A stretch of 64,000 nt of DNA from Deltaproteobacteria bacterium (GTDB lineage: Bacteria; JAGRBM01; JAHCIT01). Within the stretch, counting starts at the first letter, position 1. Each line of letters begins with the position of its first letter. Positions 36,758-60,137 of this stretch are shown one piece after another. A program made the translations under genes and the position numbers. Location: positions 1 through 64,000 of the forward strand of contig JAHCIT010000007.1 in assembly GCA_026129095.1 (NCBI GenBank). The letters run 5' to 3'. The notes below the pieces were generated by a model, which saw only the letters and a list, made by a program, of their open reading frames with translations, searched no databases and was not told the origin of the DNA.

Positions 36758-36970
36758 CCGCCACGGCTGAACACGCTTCACCACGGCTCACCACGCCTCA
36801 AAACACTCCGCAACGCAAGGCCCACCTCAACGCACCGCATTATAAAGCGCCCGCCACCAAGGGCTGGCCGAACCTATTAATTCTTTCTAATATACTGATA
36901 TTATTAAACTTTACTCACCGCGTCGAATCTTTATTGACGCAGTTGACGCGACGTGTTAGTGATTCATTAC
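36758..36970 (+). promoter_or_regulatory. AT-rich upstream region with TTGACGC repeats
   Basis: After the LPP20-like gene, a 100-bp AT-rich tract appears at ~36870-36960, unlike its GC-rich surroundings. TTGACGC occurs twice, 2 bp apart (TTGACGCAGTTGACGC), about 30 bp before the next gene. These could be two overlapping -35 elements or operator repeats. The tract is likely the promoter region of the HTH gene at 36971. No other gene is visible. Confidence 0.4.
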
Positions 36971-37562: not shown

Positions 37563-37883
37563 ATGGCCTGGACCTATCTGTTTGTCGCCGGAATACTCGA
37601 AATAGCGTGGGCCGTCGGCCTCAAATATTCGGACGGCTTTACCCGCCTGAACGTGACCATTCCCACTGTGACCGCCATGGCAGCCAGTTTCTATTTCCTC
37701 GCACAGGCGATCCGCGTGCTCCCGATCGGCACCGCCTATGCCATCTGGACCGGCATCGGCGCCGCCGGGACGGCGGTGGCGGGCATGATCCTCTGGCAGG
37801 AGTCCCGTGAAGTGGCGCGCCTTCTGTGCCTGCTGCTCATCATTACCGGGATCATCGGACTGAAACTGACGGCGAAGGGATAA
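37563..37883 (+). CDS. gdx: SMR-family guanidinium exporter (Gdx/SugE)
   Basis: The 106-residue, four-helix membrane protein closely follows Gdx/SugE. It has W-x2-LFVAGILEIAWAVGLKYS with the essential Glu (near 13), FTRLNVTIPT, and the signature LPIGTAYAIWTGIGAAGT. It works as a dual-topology dimer that exchanges guanidinium for protons. AAGGAG is 8 nt before the ATG. The structured leader upstream fits ligand-controlled expression, and a strong bidirectional terminator follows the stop. It is a single-gene unit. Confidence 0.92.
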   Translation: MAWTYLFVAGILEIAWAVGLKYSDGFTRLNVTIPTVTAMAASFYFLAQAIRVLPIGTAYAIWTGIGAAGTAVAGMILWQESREVARLLCLLLIITGIIGLKLTAKG

Positions 37884-37888
37884 GACAG

Positions 37889-37924
37889 AAAACCCTCCGG
37901 GCCGTTTCCGGCGCGGAGGGTTTT
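37889..37924. terminator. bidirectional intrinsic terminator
   Basis: AAAACCCTCCG (37889-37899) and CGGAGGGTTTT (37914-37924) form a perfect 11-bp stem with a 14-nt loop. The A-run before and T-run after serve both strands. It lies between the convergent gdx and MaoC-like genes, ending both transcripts. Confidence 0.85.
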
Positions 37925-37944
37925 CCTTGAAAGAGCAGCGGTGC

Positions 37945-38832
37945 TTACGCGAAGAGCTGCACGCGGGCGTTCGAGACGACGACAAGCTCGCCGCCGTCGG
38001 GGCCCTTGCGCTCCTTGATCTTCGCCTGGCAGATGATCTCGGTGGGCGATTCCTTCCACATTTCGACCTTGATCGTCTCGCCGGGGTAAACGGGCGAGGC
38101 AAAGCGCACCTTGATCGACTTGAACTTCTCCGGGTTGTTGTCGGCGCAGGCCTCGATCACGGCTCGGCCCACGTTACCGAAGGTGCACAGGCCGTGGAGG
38201 ATCGGCTTGTCGAACTTGCCCATCTTCGCCATCATCGGGTCGATGTGCAGCGGGTTCTTGTCCCCTGACAGCCGGTAGAGGATCGCCTGGTGCCCCATCG
38301 TCGGGTATTCGATCACGGCATCGGGAGCACGGTTTGGCGCCTCATTGCCGGGCTCCGGGCCCTTCTCGCCGCCAAAACCGCCTTCGCCGCGGATGAATGC
38401 CGAGAAGGTGTTTTTGAGGATTTCCGTCCCGCTCTCGTCCTTGGTGATCGCGTCAAGGACGAGCAGCGCGCCCTTGCCCTTGTCATAGACGCCGGTGACC
38501 GTGCCGATCGTGGTCGTCTTGGCCTTGACGGGAAGCGGGGCCTTGAGGATTTCAGTGTACTGCTCGCCGTGGAGCAGCATCATCGGGTTGAACGACAGGC
38601 CGGGCATGCCCATGAGGCCGCCCATCGCAGGGAAGGCCGGGACGACGCCGTAGGTCGGCAGCACCTTGAGGCCGTTCTCGTAGGTGTACTGGAGAACCTT
38701 CTTCTTGTCGACCGGGTCCTGCTGGTAGCCTACCCCCACACCGAGGGCGTAAAGGATGATCTGGTCCTGACCCCACGAAAACTCGACGGGCTTCGTCTGG
38801 GCGCCTTTCACTTTGGCTGCATCAATCGGCAT
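37945..38832 (-). CDS. MaoC-type enoyl-CoA hydratase 2
   Basis: The 295-residue protein has an N-terminal hot-dog half (~10-150) and a C-terminal MaoC hydratase half. The motif YRLSGDKNPLHIDPMMA (about 185-201) supplies Asp and His of the hydratase-2 site, followed by ILHGLCTFG. This is the double hot-dog form seen in the hydratase part of peroxisomal MFE-2, which makes (3R)-hydroxyacyl-CoA. GGAGG precedes the ATG. It is divergent from an acyl-CoA ligase across an operator-like palindrome. Confidence 0.88.
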   Translation of the reverse strand: MPIDAAKVKGAQTKPVEFSWGQDQIILYALGVGVGYQQDPVDKKKVLQYTYENGLKVLPTYGVVPAFPAMGGLMGMPGLSFNPMMLLHGEQYTEILKAPLPVKAKTTTIGTVTGVYDKGKGALLVLDAITKDESGTEILKNTFSAFIRGEGGFGGEKGPEPGNEAPNRAPDAVIEYPTMGHQAILYRLSGDKNPLHIDPMMAKMGKFDKPILHGLCTFGNVGRAVIEACADNNPEKFKSIKVRFASPVYPGETIKVEMWKESPTEIICQAKIKERKGPDGGELVVVSNARVQLFA

Positions 38833-38882
38833 GAGCGGTTCCTCCAGGAATGTTTTTTGGTGCCTGATTGCTGCCGGTCGAT

Positions 38883-38900
38883 ATTGACTGGCGAGTCAAT
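38883..38900. promoter_or_regulatory. 18-bp operator-like palindrome between MaoC and acyl-CoA ligase genes
   Basis: ATTGACT (38883-38889), GGCG, AGTCAAT (38894-38900) has perfect 7-bp arms. It lies in the 140-bp divergent gap and could control both genes. The arms are identical to those of the 22-bp palindrome before the APH-like gene, but the central spacing is 4 rather than 8 bp. Confidence 0.55.
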
Positions 38901-38972
38901 CGGCGGGCATGGTCATACCCCGTGACGGGGAGATTGTAAAGCAGTTTCCCCGCCCGGTCTGGAGGAGCCCCC

Positions 38973-40622
38973 ATGTCCCAGTTCAACTTCGCCAACACCT
39001 GTGAAGCCGTCGCCGATGCCTTCCCGGAGCGGGATTTCATCCATTTCCGCGACCGGGTGGTCACTTATGGGGAGTTCCGCAGCCGCTCGCGGAAACTGGC
39101 CAACTATCTGCGTTCCAGGGGTCTCGGGAAGGTCCGCGAGCGCAAGGAACTCCAGCTCTGGGAGTCCGGGCAGGATCATGTCGGGCTCTATCTCTATAAC
39201 GGCAACGAATATCTCGAAGGAATGGTTGGTTCCTATATGGCCCGGTGTGCGCCATTCAACGTGAACTACCGTTATGTCGCGGACGAACTGGAATACCTGC
39301 TCAATGATTCACGGGCAAAGGCGCTCGTCTATCATGCCCGGTTTGCCCCGGTGCTCTCGCAGGTACTGCCGAAACTGCCAGACCTGAAGGTCCTTCTTCA
39401 GGTTCCTGATGACAGTGGCAACAAGCTCCTGTCGGGAGCCGTTGATTACGAAGAAGCGCTCGCCCTTGCACCGGACACAAAACCGGACTGCACTCCATCG
39501 CCGGATGACCTGTACATCCTCTACACGGGCGGCACGACCGGCATGCCCAAGGGCGTCATGTGGCGGCAGGAGGATATCTTCTTTGCCGCGATGGGTGGCA
39601 CGCTTCCCACCGGTCAGAGAATCGAGTCGATCGCCCAGATGGTCCAGCTTGCCAAGGGACTGGGCCCGATGCTCCGGGCCCTGCCAGCACCACCGTTCAT
39701 GCACGGCGCTTCCCACTGGGTCGCCTTCACGACCCTGCATGGCGGCGGGACCGTGGTCATTCAGGATAGCCCGGAGCGTTACGACCCAGACGAGATCCTT
39801 ACCCTGATCGAGCGGGAAAAGGTGACTGTGACGCTCATCATCGGCGATGCCTTTGCCGTGCCACTGGTCGAACAGATGGACAGGAAAGCCTACAACCTGA
39901 AAAGTCTCAAGATCATCGGCTCCGGCGGGGCTATTCTTTCGCCGAAGTGGAAGGCGGAACTGAAAGCCCGCTTCCCCGGCACCATGATCCGCGATGCAGT
40001 GGGATCTTCCGAAAGCGGAGCCCAGGGCATCGTGGTCGAATCGAAAAACCCCGAGGACGGAAACCGCTTCCAGCTCGATCCCCTGTCGGGCATCGCCAGC
40101 GAGGATCTGAGTCGCATCCTGACCCCCGCTGACCGGGAAACAGGCTGGATGGTACGCAGGGGTCTCATTCCGCTCGGCTATCTCAACGACGAAGCCAAGA
40201 CGAAAAAGACCTTCGTCACCATCAACAATGTCCGCTGGTCGGTGCCTGGCGACCATGCTGCCTATGAGCCGGATGGCACGGTACGCCTGTTCGGCCGCGG
40301 ATCCCAGTCGATCAATTCGGGCGGTGAAAAGATCTATCCCGAAGAGGTCGAAAAGGCCCTGAAATCCCATCCCGCTGTCTACGATGCCGTGGTGGTTGGA
40401 ACTCCACACCCCAAGTGGGTCGAGCAGGTGACCGCCGTTATTCAGCCTCGTGGCGACGGGCGCCCCTCTGTGGATGAGCTCAATACCCACTGCGCCAGCC
40501 AGCTTGCCAAATACAAGCTGCCCAAGGCCGTTGTTTACGTGAACGAAATGGTGAGAAGCCCCGCAGGGAAAGCTGACTACCGCTGGGCGAAAAAAACCGC
40601 CCTGGAAAAACTCGAGACCTGA
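38973..40622 (+). CDS. acyl-CoA synthetase (fatty-acid-CoA ligase, AMP-forming)
   Basis: The 549-residue ANL-family enzyme has the P-loop-type motif YTGGTTGMPKGVMW (about 184-197), a GSSESGAQG adenine-binding segment and the hinge region GRGSQSINSGGEKIYPEEVE. The C-terminal Lys is in SPAGKADYRWAKK. It activates a fatty or related acid to acyl-CoA. GGAGG precedes the ATG. Pairing with a MaoC hydratase and the shared palindrome indicate a beta-oxidation-type or lipid degradation unit. Confidence 0.9.
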   Translation: MSQFNFANTCEAVADAFPERDFIHFRDRVVTYGEFRSRSRKLANYLRSRGLGKVRERKELQLWESGQDHVGLYLYNGNEYLEGMVGSYMARCAPFNVNYRYVADELEYLLNDSRAKALVYHARFAPVLSQVLPKLPDLKVLLQVPDDSGNKLLSGAVDYEEALALAPDTKPDCTPSPDDLYILYTGGTTGMPKGVMWRQEDIFFAAMGGTLPTGQRIESIAQMVQLAKGLGPMLRALPAPPFMHGASHWVAFTTLHGGGTVVIQDSPERYDPDEILTLIEREKVTVTLIIGDAFAVPLVEQMDRKAYNLKSLKIIGSGGAILSPKWKAELKARFPGTMIRDAVGSSESGAQGIVVESKNPEDGNRFQLDPLSGIASEDLSRILTPADRETGWMVRRGLIPLGYLNDEAKTKKTFVTINNVRWSVPGDHAAYEPDGTVRLFGRGSQSINSGGEKIYPEEVEKALKSHPAVYDAVVVGTPHPKWVEQVTAVIQPRGDGRPSVDELNTHCASQLAKYKLPKAVVYVNEMVRSPAGKADYRWAKKTALEKLET

Positions 40623-55125: not shown

Positions 55126-55737
55126 ATGAAGAAACCGATGCTTCTTCTGCTCTGCCTCATTGCAATCCGGCCCGTTGCCGCAGCCGACGGGACATTGCTG
55201 CAGGGGAATGGGGTAGACCTTACGCTCCGTCAATCCGAAGCGCCGCTGACCGACCCTCAGCCGCCGGGCGCACAGGCCCCGAACCTGAGCTTGCGCATGC
55301 AGACGACGGACCGTTTTACCCTTGGGCTCCGTGCGGAACTGGAACGGCTTAACTTCATCGCCCCTGCCACTACCGAGAATCTGGGCTCCAGTTTCACGTT
55401 CATCGAATATCGCCCGCAGTGGACTGAACACAGGCTGTGGGAACATTCCGTGACGCTGCTGGCCGGGAGCCATATCCGGAGCAGTTCACTCTCACTTGCC
55501 CCAGCGCTGAGAGCTGAAACTGGGCTCAACTACCTGGTGTCCGAGAACTGGCGGATCAAAACCAGGCTGGATTGGGATATGGCAGGGGGAAGCCGCTACA
55601 ACGGCCTTTTCGCAACCGACCGGATCACGTTCCGGATCGGGGTCGGTTACCAGTTCTCGCAGCCACCGCCAACGACTCCCCTGCCCGTTACCGGCAGCGG
55701 GCCGCCAGCAGATAACGGCGGTCCTACAATACCTTGA
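55126..55737 (+). CDS. putative outer-membrane beta-barrel-like protein
   Basis: The 203-residue product has a signal peptide (KKPMLLLLCLIAIRPVAAAD, cleavage near 20). It is rich in alternating aromatic/polar strands such as LRMQTTDRFTLGLRAELERLNF and FTFIEYRPQWTEHRLWEHSVTLLAG, and ends in a Pro-rich tail. It could be a small barrel or periplasmic protein; no family is recognised. The ATG at 55126 is 47 bp after the acyl-CoA dehydrogenase stop. It overlaps a convergent arsC-like gene by 14 bp. Confidence 0.6.
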   Translation: MKKPMLLLLCLIAIRPVAAADGTLLQGNGVDLTLRQSEAPLTDPQPPGAQAPNLSLRMQTTDRFTLGLRAELERLNFIAPATTENLGSSFTFIEYRPQWTEHRLWEHSVTLLAGSHIRSSSLSLAPALRAETGLNYLVSENWRIKTRLDWDMAGGSRYNGLFATDRITFRIGVGYQFSQPPPTTPLPVTGSGPPADNGGPTIP

Positions 55738-56084: not shown

Positions 56085-56960
56085 TTATGCTGCTGGCTTT
56101 CTTGCGTGTTGCGCCCTTGCCTCGATCATCAGCACAACCGGCCCGTATTGCTTGCGTTCACCGGGGACAAGCCCAGACGCCCGGAACATGCCGTCCAGTT
56201 CGCTCTCGTCAAAGAACCGGAGGCCGGAGAACCTGCTGGATAGCCGTTCAGCGGCACGGATCCACGGTGTTCTGGAAGTCCGGGTAGTAAGCAGACAGAA
56301 GGCGCCGCCTTTCTTCAGCAAACCACCCACAGCCTGCGTAACGGCCGTTGGATCAGGGAAAAGATGGAATGCCGCCATACAGGTCGCATGACTGAACTGG
56401 GCCCGCTTCCGGAACGGCAGGTTCTGGACGTCGGCACGAATGTAGATGACGTTTCCAATACCATCGGCCGCTGCCAGCTTGACGGCTTCCTTCAGCATGG
56501 GACCGGAAATGTCCACACCTATTACGTCACCTGTAGCGCCCTTGGCGCCGTCCCCGGCCACCAGTTTGGCCAGCGGGCGGGTATACAGTCCCGGCCCGCA
56601 GGCAAGATCCAGCAGACGATCCCCCGGCTCCAGCCTGAGCCAGCGGGTGACAGTGCGAAGCTCTTCGTCGAACGTGAGCCCTGGCGATACAGCCCGGACC
56701 AGTTGCGGACGCCACTGTTCTTCATAAATCCGGGTAATAGGTGCCATCTCCATCAGCCGCTGCGACGGTGATGGACGACGTCTGCCATTCATGACGAAAT
56801 CAGGCACCCCATCCCGTACCGGATAGGCCCGGCTGCAACTGGAGCAGCGAAGCTCTCCGTCAATGAGGCGGCCGTTCCGGGGGAGAGGCGACGGACCCGC
56901 AGCCAGTTCCTGATGCCCACAAGCGGGACAGGCGAATATATCCAGTAGAGAGAGTTTCAT
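56085..56960 (-). CDS. SAM methyltransferase with N-terminal Trm112-like zinc domain
   Basis: The 291-residue protein begins with a zinc ribbon: CPACG (11-15) and CSSCSRAYPV (39-48), the Trm112/UPF0434 type. A methyltransferase domain follows, with LLDLACGPGLYTRPLAK (about 112-128), GVDISGPML and a LLKKGGAFCLLTTR strand. It resembles UbiE/RlmA-like enzymes, acting on tRNA, rRNA or a small molecule. It is co-directional with arsC. The gap upstream contains the candidate ncRNA on the other strand. Confidence 0.75.
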   Translation of the reverse strand: MKLSLLDIFACPACGHQELAAGPSPLPRNGRLIDGELRCSSCSRAYPVRDGVPDFVMNGRRRPSPSQRLMEMAPITRIYEEQWRPQLVRAVSPGLTFDEELRTVTRWLRLEPGDRLLDLACGPGLYTRPLAKLVAGDGAKGATGDVIGVDISGPMLKEAVKLAAADGIGNVIYIRADVQNLPFRKRAQFSHATCMAAFHLFPDPTAVTQAVGGLLKKGGAFCLLTTRTSRTPWIRAAERLSSRFSGLRFFDESELDGMFRASGLVPGERKQYGPVVLMIEARAQHARKPAA

Positions 56961-57055
56961 GGCGCTAAAAGTGTGACCCCGCTTACAACCGGCCTCCCTG
57001 CAACTGTTTCATTCCTGTCATGCAAAAGAAAAGCGCCTGGCACGGGTTTTACCGG

Positions 57056-57080
57056 CCCTTTACGCAGCCCCCGTAAAGGG
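57056..57080. repeat. perfect 9-bp hairpin upstream of ncRNA candidate
   Basis: CCCTTTACG (57056-57064) and CGTAAAGGG (57072-57080) are perfect complements around a 7-nt loop. No T-run follows. The hairpin could be an upstream operator of the candidate RNA or the end of the methyltransferase gene's promoter region. Confidence 0.4.
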
Positions 57081-57106
57081 ACGTAACCTTGCACTGCCTG
57101 TAAGTT

Positions 57107-57279
57107 GGCTCACAGGGTATCCGGAATGGCCGCGCTAGACTGTAAGCAAGTCCGGGCACGAGTGCGGAAGGAAGTCCGCCCACGCAGATACCCCAAGGCA
57201 CTCCGGTCCGGATGGTACCCAAACCCTTCTTCCCTCTACCCGAGCGGTCGTGTTGAGCCACACGGCCGCTCACCTTTTC
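57107..57279 (+). ncRNA. candidate structured non-coding RNA ended by intrinsic terminator
   Basis: The 325-bp gap between two minus-strand genes holds plus-strand structure. GGCTCA (57107-57112) can pair with TGAGCC (57254-57259). GGGTATC (57115-57121) pairs perfectly with GATACCC (57187-57193), and GCGGA/TCCGC (57164-57179) forms an inner hairpin with loop AGGAAG. A strong terminator follows. GGAAGGAAG recalls the SRP RNA loop but the apical stem does not match, and it is too short for RNase P RNA. Class unassigned. Confidence 0.45.
57242..57279 (+). terminator. intrinsic terminator of the candidate ncRNA
   Basis: GAGCGGTCGTG (57242-57252) pairs with CACGGCCGCTC (57261-57271), with one G-T pair and an 8-nt loop, then ACCTTTT. 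The T-run is on the plus strand only. No plus-strand protein gene ends here, so it most likely ends a small RNA. Confidence 0.65.
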
Positions 57280-57285
57280 GGCTGA

Positions 57286-57615
57286 TCAGTACCGGGGCAT
57301 ATCGGGATCAATTTCCCGGGCCCATCGTTCCACACCGCCAGCGAGAGACCATACTTCCTTCATGCCCAGTTGCTGCTTCAGGAAAGCGGCCGCATTCAGC
57401 GACCTCACCCCATGATGGCATATGGTAACAACCGGCAGGCCGGGCGGGATATCCGGCGCGACATCTTCAAACCGGGAAAGCGGGAACAGGCTGGATCCAG
57501 GTATCCGGCAGATATCGAACTCATGCACTTCGCGCACGTCGCAAAGGAATAGTGGCCGCTTTTCCTCAAGCCACGCCTTAAGCTCGGCTGGCGTGATTTC
57601 CCATCCTGAGGCCAT
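57286..57615 (-). CDS. single-domain rhodanese (sulfurtransferase)
   Basis: The 109-residue protein contains the whole rhodanese fold: LFLCDVREVHEFDICRIPGS (22-41) and active-site loop TICHHGVRS, where Cys carries persulfide. The C-terminal VWSLAGGVERWAREI is typical. It transfers sulfane sulfur to cyanide, thiols or sulfur carriers. It begins 3 bp after the cyclase stop, so the two genes are co-transcribed. It is a possible sulfur donor for other pathways, though its partner is unknown. Confidence 0.9.
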   Translation of the reverse strand: MASGWEITPAELKAWLEEKRPLFLCDVREVHEFDICRIPGSSLFPLSRFEDVAPDIPPGLPVVTICHHGVRSLNAAAFLKQQLGMKEVWSLAGGVERWAREIDPDMPRY

Positions 57616-57617
57616 AT

Positions 57618-60137
57618 CTATTTCGACTTCGCCACGTAGGCGCCGTCCCAGTTCTCGGGCGGCGGGGAAACGAGATATTCCTTCGTACGCTTCAGGAAAA
57701 CGCCAGCAGGCCCATCCTTGGGGTTCATGGAGAGAATCTTCTCAAACAACTCGATCGCGCCGGGGAAATCACGCCCCATGTGCCGCTTCATCGCCTCATC
57801 CCAGATTGGCATTATGTCAGCCAGGACTCCGGTTGTCGTTCCCTTTTTCCCAAACAGCTCGTAAACCTTCACCGGCTTGGTCTTCCCCTTGACGACAAGA
57901 AGATCGAGGAACCTGCAATCAATAGCGTCCTTGGCCTGATTATAGGTCTCCTCGCCAATCATCAGATAAATCCCGTACGCCTTGCACTGGGATTCAAGAC
58001 GTGCGGCGAGGTTCACCGTGTCGCCCATCATCGTGTAGTTAAACCGCGACTGGCTGCCCATGTTACCGATGACCATCGGACCGGTATTGAGCCCGATCCG
58101 CATCCGGACCTGAGGGAGCCCCTGCTTGACCCATTCTTCGCGGAGTTCCGCCAGCTTGACCTGCATGTCGATGGCGGAATGGCAGGCGCGGACGGCGTGA
58201 TCCTCGAACGGGATCGGGGCGCCGTAGAACGACACGATGGCATCGCCGATATACTTGTCCACGGTCGCGTCATACTGGTAGGCGATATTGGTCATTTCAG
58301 TCAGAAAGACGTTCAGGAAACTGACCAGCTCTTCTGGCTGCATTTTCTCGGAAAAAGTGGAGAACCCCTCGATGTCCGAGAAGAACGCTGTCAATATCTT
58401 CTTTTCCCCGCCGAGCTTCAGCGCACCGGGATCGTCGGCGAGCTTGGTCACCATCGCCGGGTGCAGGTAGTAGCCAAAGGCGCTCTTGATCTGGCGTTTC
58501 TCCTTCTCCTCCGTGGCATAGCGGTAAATCGTAATGGCCGAGTAGCTCGCCACCACCGAGAACAGCGGGAAAATCAGGTTGAGCCACACGCCGCGCTGGA
58601 AGACATAGAAATTGAGCCAAATGACCCCCGCCATGACGAACACCGTGATCAGGGCGCCCGAAACCGCCGACAGGCGCGGGACAATCACCGCCATCAGGAT
58701 CGCGATCACCAGCATGATGAACAGGTCCTGGACGTAGGTGACCGGATTCGGAGCGAACTTGAAATCCTGGTTCAGCAGGTTGTTGATCACCGCCGCATGG
58801 ATCTCGACACCTGGGAGCGCCTTCTCGAATGGCGTTGTCCTAAGATCGTACACGCCGATAGATGTCGCCCCGAACAGGACGATCTTGTCCTTGAAGGTTC
58901 CTGGCGGGTAGTTCCCCGATACGGCGTCGGCGAAGCTGATGTGCGGATATGTCCCTTTGCCGCCGTAGTAGTTGATCAGAAGCCGGCCGCGATCATCGGT
59001 TGGGATCAGGATATACCGGTCATCCTGATCGGGACCGATCCCTACCTGCGAGATCAGGTTCCCGTAGTTGTCATATTCAAACGCGATCGCCGCCTCCGGA
59101 CTATATCGTTTCAGATAGGTCAGGGTCGTCTCTACAGCCAGCGATGTGAACACATCCTCGTCGTGCCGGAGGAATACCTCATGACGGCGAATGATTCCGT
59201 CCTCATCCTGTTCGGCATTGAAATACCCGAAATGGGCACCCTTGCGTGACAATATTTCCAGGTTCGGAAGCACACCGATGGCGGACGGTATGGCGATATA
59301 GGGGTCGTTCGCGGTGCGTTCCCCCCGTTCGATCGCATTCATCACCCGGCTGGGGTACTGGAGCTCAAATCCCTTGACGATCTGCTCCATCGGCAGATCG
59401 CCGATTTCGGCCTTGTCCTTGAACATGACATAGCCGAGCACAATCCGGTCACGGTATTTCTCAATGATCTGGGCGAATGCCTCGTCCGATCCAAAATTGG
59501 CTGCTTCCTCGATTTCCTTCTGGAGCCGTATCCGGGATTGTTCTACCAGCCCCTGCTGGCGCCTGAGGTCTGCCATCAGCGCCTCGAACTGGCTGCGCGG
59601 CGTCTCATCGGGGAGTTGCTCCAGCAGCCGGTTCATCCGGGCATCCAGGTCGGACGGGAGCAGGATCTTGTCCCTGAAGTAGGTTTTTTCCAGCCGTGTC
59701 ACCAGCTCATGGAATACCGACTTGACCGTCTGGTCATTGGGATCAGGTTCGGCGAATACGGCGTCGAACCCCAGCACGGCCGCGCCATCCTCCATGATGT
59801 TCTCGATGCCCCGGCCGATCACCCGGCGCTGCCAGGGCCACCGTCCCAGTTCCTTGTTGGCCTTCTCGTCGATCGTCACGATCACGATACGCGGATCGGC
59901 CGGACGGGTACCGGTCATGAGGAACCGGTAGTCGTATGCCTTGCTCTCAATCTGGTTGATGAATGAAAGCCCCTGCGTCTGGAACAGATAGTGAAGCGTG
60001 TTGACGGGGTGCATCACCTTGAGCACATAGACCGCCGCCAGAACCAAGAAGACAAAAAATGAGAGTTTGGCGGGAGACAGTCCCAGCCACTTGCGCAACA
60101 CACTCCGGCCGCTGCTGCCGCTACCCTTGTCTGCCAT
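57618..60137 (-). CDS. CHASE2-domain adenylate/guanylate cyclase
   Basis: The 839-residue protein has an N-terminal helix (~25-45), a large extracytoplasmic CHASE2 sensor (~60-410) with DYRFLMTGTRPADPRIVIVTID, then three helices (~450-540). The class III cyclase domain begins near 583. Metal Asp residues are in FFSDIEGFS and KYIGDAIVSFYG, and GLNTGPMVIGNMGSQSRFNYTMMGD is the substrate loop. A TPR-like tail ends it. It senses an envelope signal and makes cAMP or cGMP. GGGGAA precedes the ATG. It is transcribed with rhodanese. Confidence 0.93.
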   Translation of the reverse strand: MADKGSGSSGRSVLRKWLGLSPAKLSFFVFLVLAAVYVLKVMHPVNTLHYLFQTQGLSFINQIESKAYDYRFLMTGTRPADPRIVIVTIDEKANKELGRWPWQRRVIGRGIENIMEDGAAVLGFDAVFAEPDPNDQTVKSVFHELVTRLEKTYFRDKILLPSDLDARMNRLLEQLPDETPRSQFEALMADLRRQQGLVEQSRIRLQKEIEEAANFGSDEAFAQIIEKYRDRIVLGYVMFKDKAEIGDLPMEQIVKGFELQYPSRVMNAIERGERTANDPYIAIPSAIGVLPNLEILSRKGAHFGYFNAEQDEDGIIRRHEVFLRHDEDVFTSLAVETTLTYLKRYSPEAAIAFEYDNYGNLISQVGIGPDQDDRYILIPTDDRGRLLINYYGGKGTYPHISFADAVSGNYPPGTFKDKIVLFGATSIGVYDLRTTPFEKALPGVEIHAAVINNLLNQDFKFAPNPVTYVQDLFIMLVIAILMAVIVPRLSAVSGALITVFVMAGVIWLNFYVFQRGVWLNLIFPLFSVVASYSAITIYRYATEEKEKRQIKSAFGYYLHPAMVTKLADDPGALKLGGEKKILTAFFSDIEGFSTFSEKMQPEELVSFLNVFLTEMTNIAYQYDATVDKYIGDAIVSFYGAPIPFEDHAVRACHSAIDMQVKLAELREEWVKQGLPQVRMRIGLNTGPMVIGNMGSQSRFNYTMMGDTVNLAARLESQCKAYGIYLMIGEETYNQAKDAIDCRFLDLLVVKGKTKPVKVYELFGKKGTTTGVLADIMPIWDEAMKRHMGRDFPGAIELFEKILSMNPKDGPAGVFLKRTKEYLVSPPPENWDGAYVAKSK

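Follow-up and report, generated by a model that had tools for sequence, protein, structure and literature searches.

A candidate lineage-specific small RNA ending at an orphan terminator-like hairpin in an intergenic gap of a deltaproteobacterial genome

The 325-nt gap at positions 56961–57285 of the window (the whole 64-kb stretch of DNA that was analysed, part of contig C7 of the source genome) appears, on what we regard as the best single reading, to hold a lineage-specific small RNA (sRNA) candidate that would end at an orphan terminator, an assignment that we make tentatively. The reading is favoured by the fact that the terminator-like hairpin stands alone in its class within the window (shuffled sequence averages 0.35 entries), that it folds better on the plus strand and that its T run is present on that strand only, as well as by the lack of any plus-strand gene ending nearby, the lack of a coding signal and an inner stem with a z-score of −3.62. 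It is weakened by the absence of detected relatives, weak promoter candidates, the ordinary fold of the body as a whole, the shortness of the T run (four Ts) and the failure to find Hfq or CsrA, and also by a stretch, 57114–57219, that folds better on the minus strand and by the SRP gene of the same genome, which has no visible terminator. The main competing explanations are that the hairpin forms the 3′ end of the rhodanese operon or that the gap is a methyltransferase mRNA leader on the minus strand.

Genomic setting

The source genome (3.67 Mb in 23 contigs, 96.65% complete) belongs to a phylum that is represented by one other genome in our comparison set. Both neighbours of the gap, a methyltransferase and a rhodanese, are encoded on the minus strand (Table 1), and the nearest plus-strand ORF with a coding signal upstream of the element ends at 55737. 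The initial annotation was therefore right to place the element on the strand opposite both flanking genes, with no plus-strand protein gene to end. The methyltransferase start at 56960 is backed by an alignment from residue 1 with the best match in a genome of the same order (40% identity); a later start is preferred by our in-house codon model. This simple gene caller missed the rhodanese and shortened the methyltransferase, and its list gives the gap here as 864 nt, not 325 nt. The gaps between its calls in the window have a median of 62 nt, and 7 of the 54, the element's gap included, measure at least 325 nt, so that a gap of this length is not rare. No coding signal was found on either strand of the gap, where codon scores are negative. 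A protein gene was considered and rejected, as neither the 107-aa ORF on the plus strand nor the 74-aa ORF on the minus strand has a Pfam match at E ≤ 0.01 or a positive codon score.

Table 1. Features of the gap and its surroundings (positions in the window; a point in the strand column marks a feature without strand)
Feature	Position	Strand	Remarks
Trm112 domain (N-terminal) + class I methyltransferase	56085–56960	−	Flanking gene; domain search
Sigma-54-like site TGGCACGGGTTTTACC	57038–57053	+	Differs from the consensus at two positions, including one in the −12 GC; weak candidate promoter
Inverted repeat TTTACG-N7-CGTAAA	57059–57077	.	Possible operator between divergent units
TGGCTCA	57106–57112	+	Complement of the terminator loop TGAGCC and the next A (57254–57260); possible long-range contact
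Putative sRNA body	57107–57241	+	No coding signal on either strand; fold predictions
Nested stems	57115–57220	+	57115–57121/57214–57220 (7 pairs), 57150–57157/57206–57213 (8 pairs), 57160–57165/57198–57203 (6 pairs)
Intrinsic-terminator-like hairpin and tail ACCTTTT	57242–57278	+	12 pairs, loop TGAGCC
Single-domain rhodanese	57286–57615	−	Flanking gene; domain search
CHASE2-cyclase	57618–60137	−	Precedes the rhodanese in the operon

The terminator-like hairpin

On the plus strand, the stem-loop at 57242–57271 is built of uninterrupted pairs, all 12 of them, including eight G-C pairs and one G.U, around a 6-nt loop, and is directly followed by ACCTTTTC, in which a run of only four Ts comes after ACC. 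With the class defined by minima of 11 perfect pairs, 8 G-C pairs and 4 Ts in the next 8 bases, thresholds chosen after the hairpin had been seen, this is the only such locus on either strand of the 64-kb window. Forty dinucleotide shuffles of the whole window yielded 0.35 entries of the class per 64 kb on average, both strands taken together, with a largest count of 6, although a single hairpin can yield two entries. Taken alone, 57242–57276 has a z-score of −5.61 on the plus strand versus −3.29 on the minus strand, and the energy of the hairpin is −22.9 versus −18.1 kcal/mol; the minus-strand version carries one C.A mismatch in its stem and has a single T among the 8 bases that follow. Even with up to 3 mismatches, the hairpin occurs in one place in the genome, and a repeated (REP-like) hairpin was rejected on this ground.

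The terminator had been described as clean. The hairpin is indeed strong and alone of its class in the window, but the T run comprises only four Ts and the hairpin is missing from the list of a generic consensus terminator scan, so that its interpretation as a putative plus-strand terminator, while sensible, calls for caution. Intrinsic termination seems to be used in the source genome, given that, by eye, a G+C-rich hairpin and then TTTTT come after its 6S RNA gene (L004, G000:C11:15772–15975); the 90 nt behind its SRP gene contain, also by eye, no hairpin with a T run.

As far as sequence goes, a putative terminator without a co-oriented gene, the mark of orphan-terminator intergenic sRNAs, is present here. 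Such terminators are an accepted guide to sRNAs; in S. meliloti, 14 of 18 hand-picked intergenic regions, chosen partly by orphan terminators, were detected, and table rows for candidates give BLAST matches in related genomes (PMC2573895). Trans-acting intergenic sRNAs identified through orphan terminators, the S. meliloti candidates for example, share with the element the intergenic place opposite both neighbours, the rho-independent-type hairpin at the end and the lack of a coding signal. The element differs from them in that it is known from sequence alone and comes without a convincing promoter, relatives or an Hfq gene found in its genome.

Fold of the putative sRNA body

The nested complementary segments of the initial annotation are present as sequence, with 7, 8 and 6 pairs, but the whole body without the terminator (57104–57238) folds on the plus strand like its shuffles (z = −0.19; 115 of 300 shuffles as good). 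The other plus-strand z-scores are −1.61 for 57100–57285 (14 of 200 shuffles as good), −2.28 for 57107–57279 (5 of 300), −1.27 for 57114–57219 (32 of 300), −2.27 for 57114–57222 (8 of 300) and −3.62 for the inner stem at 57148–57213 (0 of 300), the boundaries of the inner stretches having been picked after the folds were seen. On the minus strand, the values are −1.75 for 57100–57285 (10 of 200), −1.36 for 57107–57279 (30 of 300), −0.92 for the body without the terminator (52 of 300), −2.82 for 57114–57219 (1 of 300) and −2.73 for the inner stem (4 of 300), such that certain stretches of the body, 57114–57219 among them, fold better on this strand. When 173-nt stretches were sampled at 213 places of the window on both strands, 15 of the 426 reached a z-score of −2.28 or lower; in this sampling, the element scored −1.99 on the plus and −1.92 on the minus strand. 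The evidence for folding beyond chance is mixed; on the plus strand, only the inner stem is conspicuous within the body.

Comparison with known RNA families

Nowhere in the window did an Rfam family reach its gathering score, and with E up to 10, neither SRP nor 6S RNA was matched at the element on either strand. The four weak local matches at the element, the best of which is to Ysr141 (15.6 bits, E = 0.053; gathering score 196), were taken as chance. The scan for SRP, 6S and other families, which the initial annotation had named as a check on itself, thus matched no known RNA class at the element. The same annotation had noted the hint of an SRP-like loop with a disagreeing stem, a reservation that proved well placed. 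The string GGAAGGAAG is common to the Bacterial small SRP RNA (RF00169) and the element, where it begins the 32-nt terminal loop of the nested stems in the predicted plus-strand fold (57166–57174) and thus lies at the edge of that loop; the stem closing the SRP tetraloop is, by eye, broken in the element. The SRP gene of the genome is located elsewhere (G000:C2:108180–108277, 55.9 bits). 6S RNA (RF00013) resembles the element in length, and the sequence of the element allows for a long nested stem, but the 6S covariance model has no match there, whereas it recovers L004 with 75.7 bits. Given that SRP and 6S genes are found elsewhere in the genome, the element does not fill the place of either housekeeping RNA. 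No tRNA or tmRNA was found, and a CRISPR-linked RNA was not supported, the sole tandem-repeat row of the window being a 2-copy repeat at 36761–36800 and the 1080-aa ORF being GlnD-like.

Promoter candidates and RNA-binding proteins

No sigma-70-like site of 9-of-12 quality was found on the plus strand. The one upstream plus-strand site of 8-of-12 quality is at 56982, with a spacer of 19, and sites of this quality occur 239 times on the plus strand of the window. The consensus of sigma-54 promoters is TGGCACGNNNNTTGCW; sites as close to it as the one in Table 1 number seven on both strands of the window, and a sigma-54 gene is encoded in the source genome. The inverted repeat TTTACG-N7-CGTAAA is found in its exact form in one place in the genome. 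A role as the operator of a regulon was not supported, since, with at most 1 mismatch, there are 4 occurrences in the source genome (G000) versus 3 of the reversed control, and 5 versus 8 in G001.

Searches of the 96.65%-complete assembly at E ≤ 0.001 returned no match to Hfq (PF17209; 5 of 14 controls matched) or CsrA (PF02599; 3 of 14 controls matched). For the candidate RNA, a classical Hfq-dependent or CsrA-sponge mechanism accordingly appears unlikely, with the proviso that the assembly is not quite complete, and an identity as a CsrA-sponge RNA of the CsrB/RsmY kind was considered unlikely for the same reason.

Search for relatives

BLAST against 60 genomes matched only the source genome (1/60). 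The same outcome (1/192) was obtained with a structure-plus-sequence model, R1, in 192 genomes, the 191 others including one genome of the same order; R1 was built from one sequence entered twice, which makes it little more than BLAST with structure, and the filters were stricter in this search. Plasmids and phages yielded no relative at E up to 1, and two scans of genome contigs no close relative; records of the source genome or near-identical ones were possibly excluded from the contig, plasmid, phage and viral 16-mer searches. The methyltransferase (40% identity), the cyclase (47%) and the rhodanese (53%) have their best matches in the same-order genome on three different contigs (C305, C488 and C391, respectively), which leaves no syntenic gap for comparison. 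The methyltransferase start in that genome is directly adjoined by a divergent ORF that, by eye, looks response-regulator-like. More distant methyltransferase loci, 16 in number and 35–38% identical, are presumably all actinobacterial, judging by their titles and taxonomy. Eight of these 16 are included in a set of 39 sources that were compared further, as are all 23 loci with viral 16-mer matches; at E up to 1, the 39 sources yielded only the window, once as itself and once, on the minus strand, through its own hairpin (17.4 bits, E = 0.019). With one other genome of the phylum compared, the absence of relatives would not refute conservation.

Alternative explanations

A possible, if doubtful, alternative is that the hairpin belongs to the 3′ end of the cyclase-rhodanese operon on the minus strand, where it would act as a terminator or block exonucleases, the rest of the gap being ordinary DNA of the methyltransferase's promoter and leader. 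The position of the hairpin right behind the rhodanese stop codon, 14 nt past it, is consistent with this explanation, as are its ability to form on the minus strand (−18.1 kcal/mol) and the presence of a similar hairpin between convergent gene ends at 37888–37925. However, the mismatched minus-strand stem with a single T in the 8 bases after it, and the location of the T run on the plus strand, argue against it. A chance hairpin in non-functional intergenic DNA is unlikely: although the whole body folds like shuffled sequence and neither the 60-genome BLAST nor the 192-genome model search found a relative, the expected number of hairpins of this class is about 0.35 in 64 kb, counting both strands, and far lower in a 325-nt gap.

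It is likewise unlikely that the gap gives rise to a riboswitch- or attenuator-like structured leader on the mRNA of the minus-strand methyltransferase. Such a leader would fit the better minus-strand fold of 57114–57219, where 1 of 300 shuffles is as good, and the 325 nt upstream of the methyltransferase start at 56960. By contrast, neither strand yielded an Rfam match, and a search of 56961–57240 for minus-strand hairpins with 9 or more pairs and 4 or more Ts in 8 bases, thresholds again chosen after the terminator-like hairpin had been seen, returned none. By z-score, both the inner stem and the whole element fold better on the plus strand; furthermore, the best-matching methyltransferase of the same-order genome is 40% identical, and the response-regulator-like ORF lies directly beside its start.

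Proposed mode of action

If the gap does encode an sRNA, plus-strand transcription would start from a promoter somewhere between about 57040 and 57107 and end at the putative intrinsic terminator, yielding a lineage-specific noncoding RNA of ~170–215 nt. Because the terminator is just short of the opposing 3′ end of the rhodanese gene, it would stop the RNA from running antisense into the rhodanese operon. The RNA would most likely act, without Hfq, by base-pairing with target mRNAs through exposed loops, for instance the purine-rich GGAAGGAAG loop. Pairing predictions with five nearby genes gave long interrupted duplexes for all five and are uninformative, since the program ignores within-strand structure. 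It is also conceivable, but highly improbable, that the 5′ end of the RNA pairs with its own terminator loop (Table 1), such that folding, a ligand or a partner RNA could switch termination and allow antisense readthrough into the rhodanese-cyclase operon. The complementarity was spotted after the fact, and the 7-mer TGGCTCA occurs in 13 of 2000 shuffles of 57100–57241, the 6-mer GGCTCA in 86 of 2000.

Of the initial proposal of an sRNA gene with its own terminator, the terminator-like hairpin and the gene layout are upheld, but no convincing promoter and no relatives were found to go with them. The element is an ordinary kind of sRNA candidate. Should the RNA be expressed, a barely sampled lineage in which no Hfq or CsrA gene was found would gain an sRNA that matches no Rfam family, a useful but unsurprising addition, given that unlisted sRNAs are to be expected in sparsely covered lineages.

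Other structured loci in the window

The strongest fold among the sampled 173-nt stretches is found at 38807–38979, with z-scores of −4.79 and −4.55, the lowest two of the 426. This stretch is located at the divergent gap between ORFs 37945–38832 (−) and 38973–40622 (+) and contains a palindrome, ATTGACT-GGCG-AGTCAAT (38883–38900), which we take to be operator-like, as well as a hairpin at 38924–38954. The long hairpin at 37888–37925, with 16 pairs and one mismatch on the plus strand, lies between gene ends that, according to the codon-model caller, converge at 37883 (+) and 37945 (−), and is possibly a bidirectional terminator.
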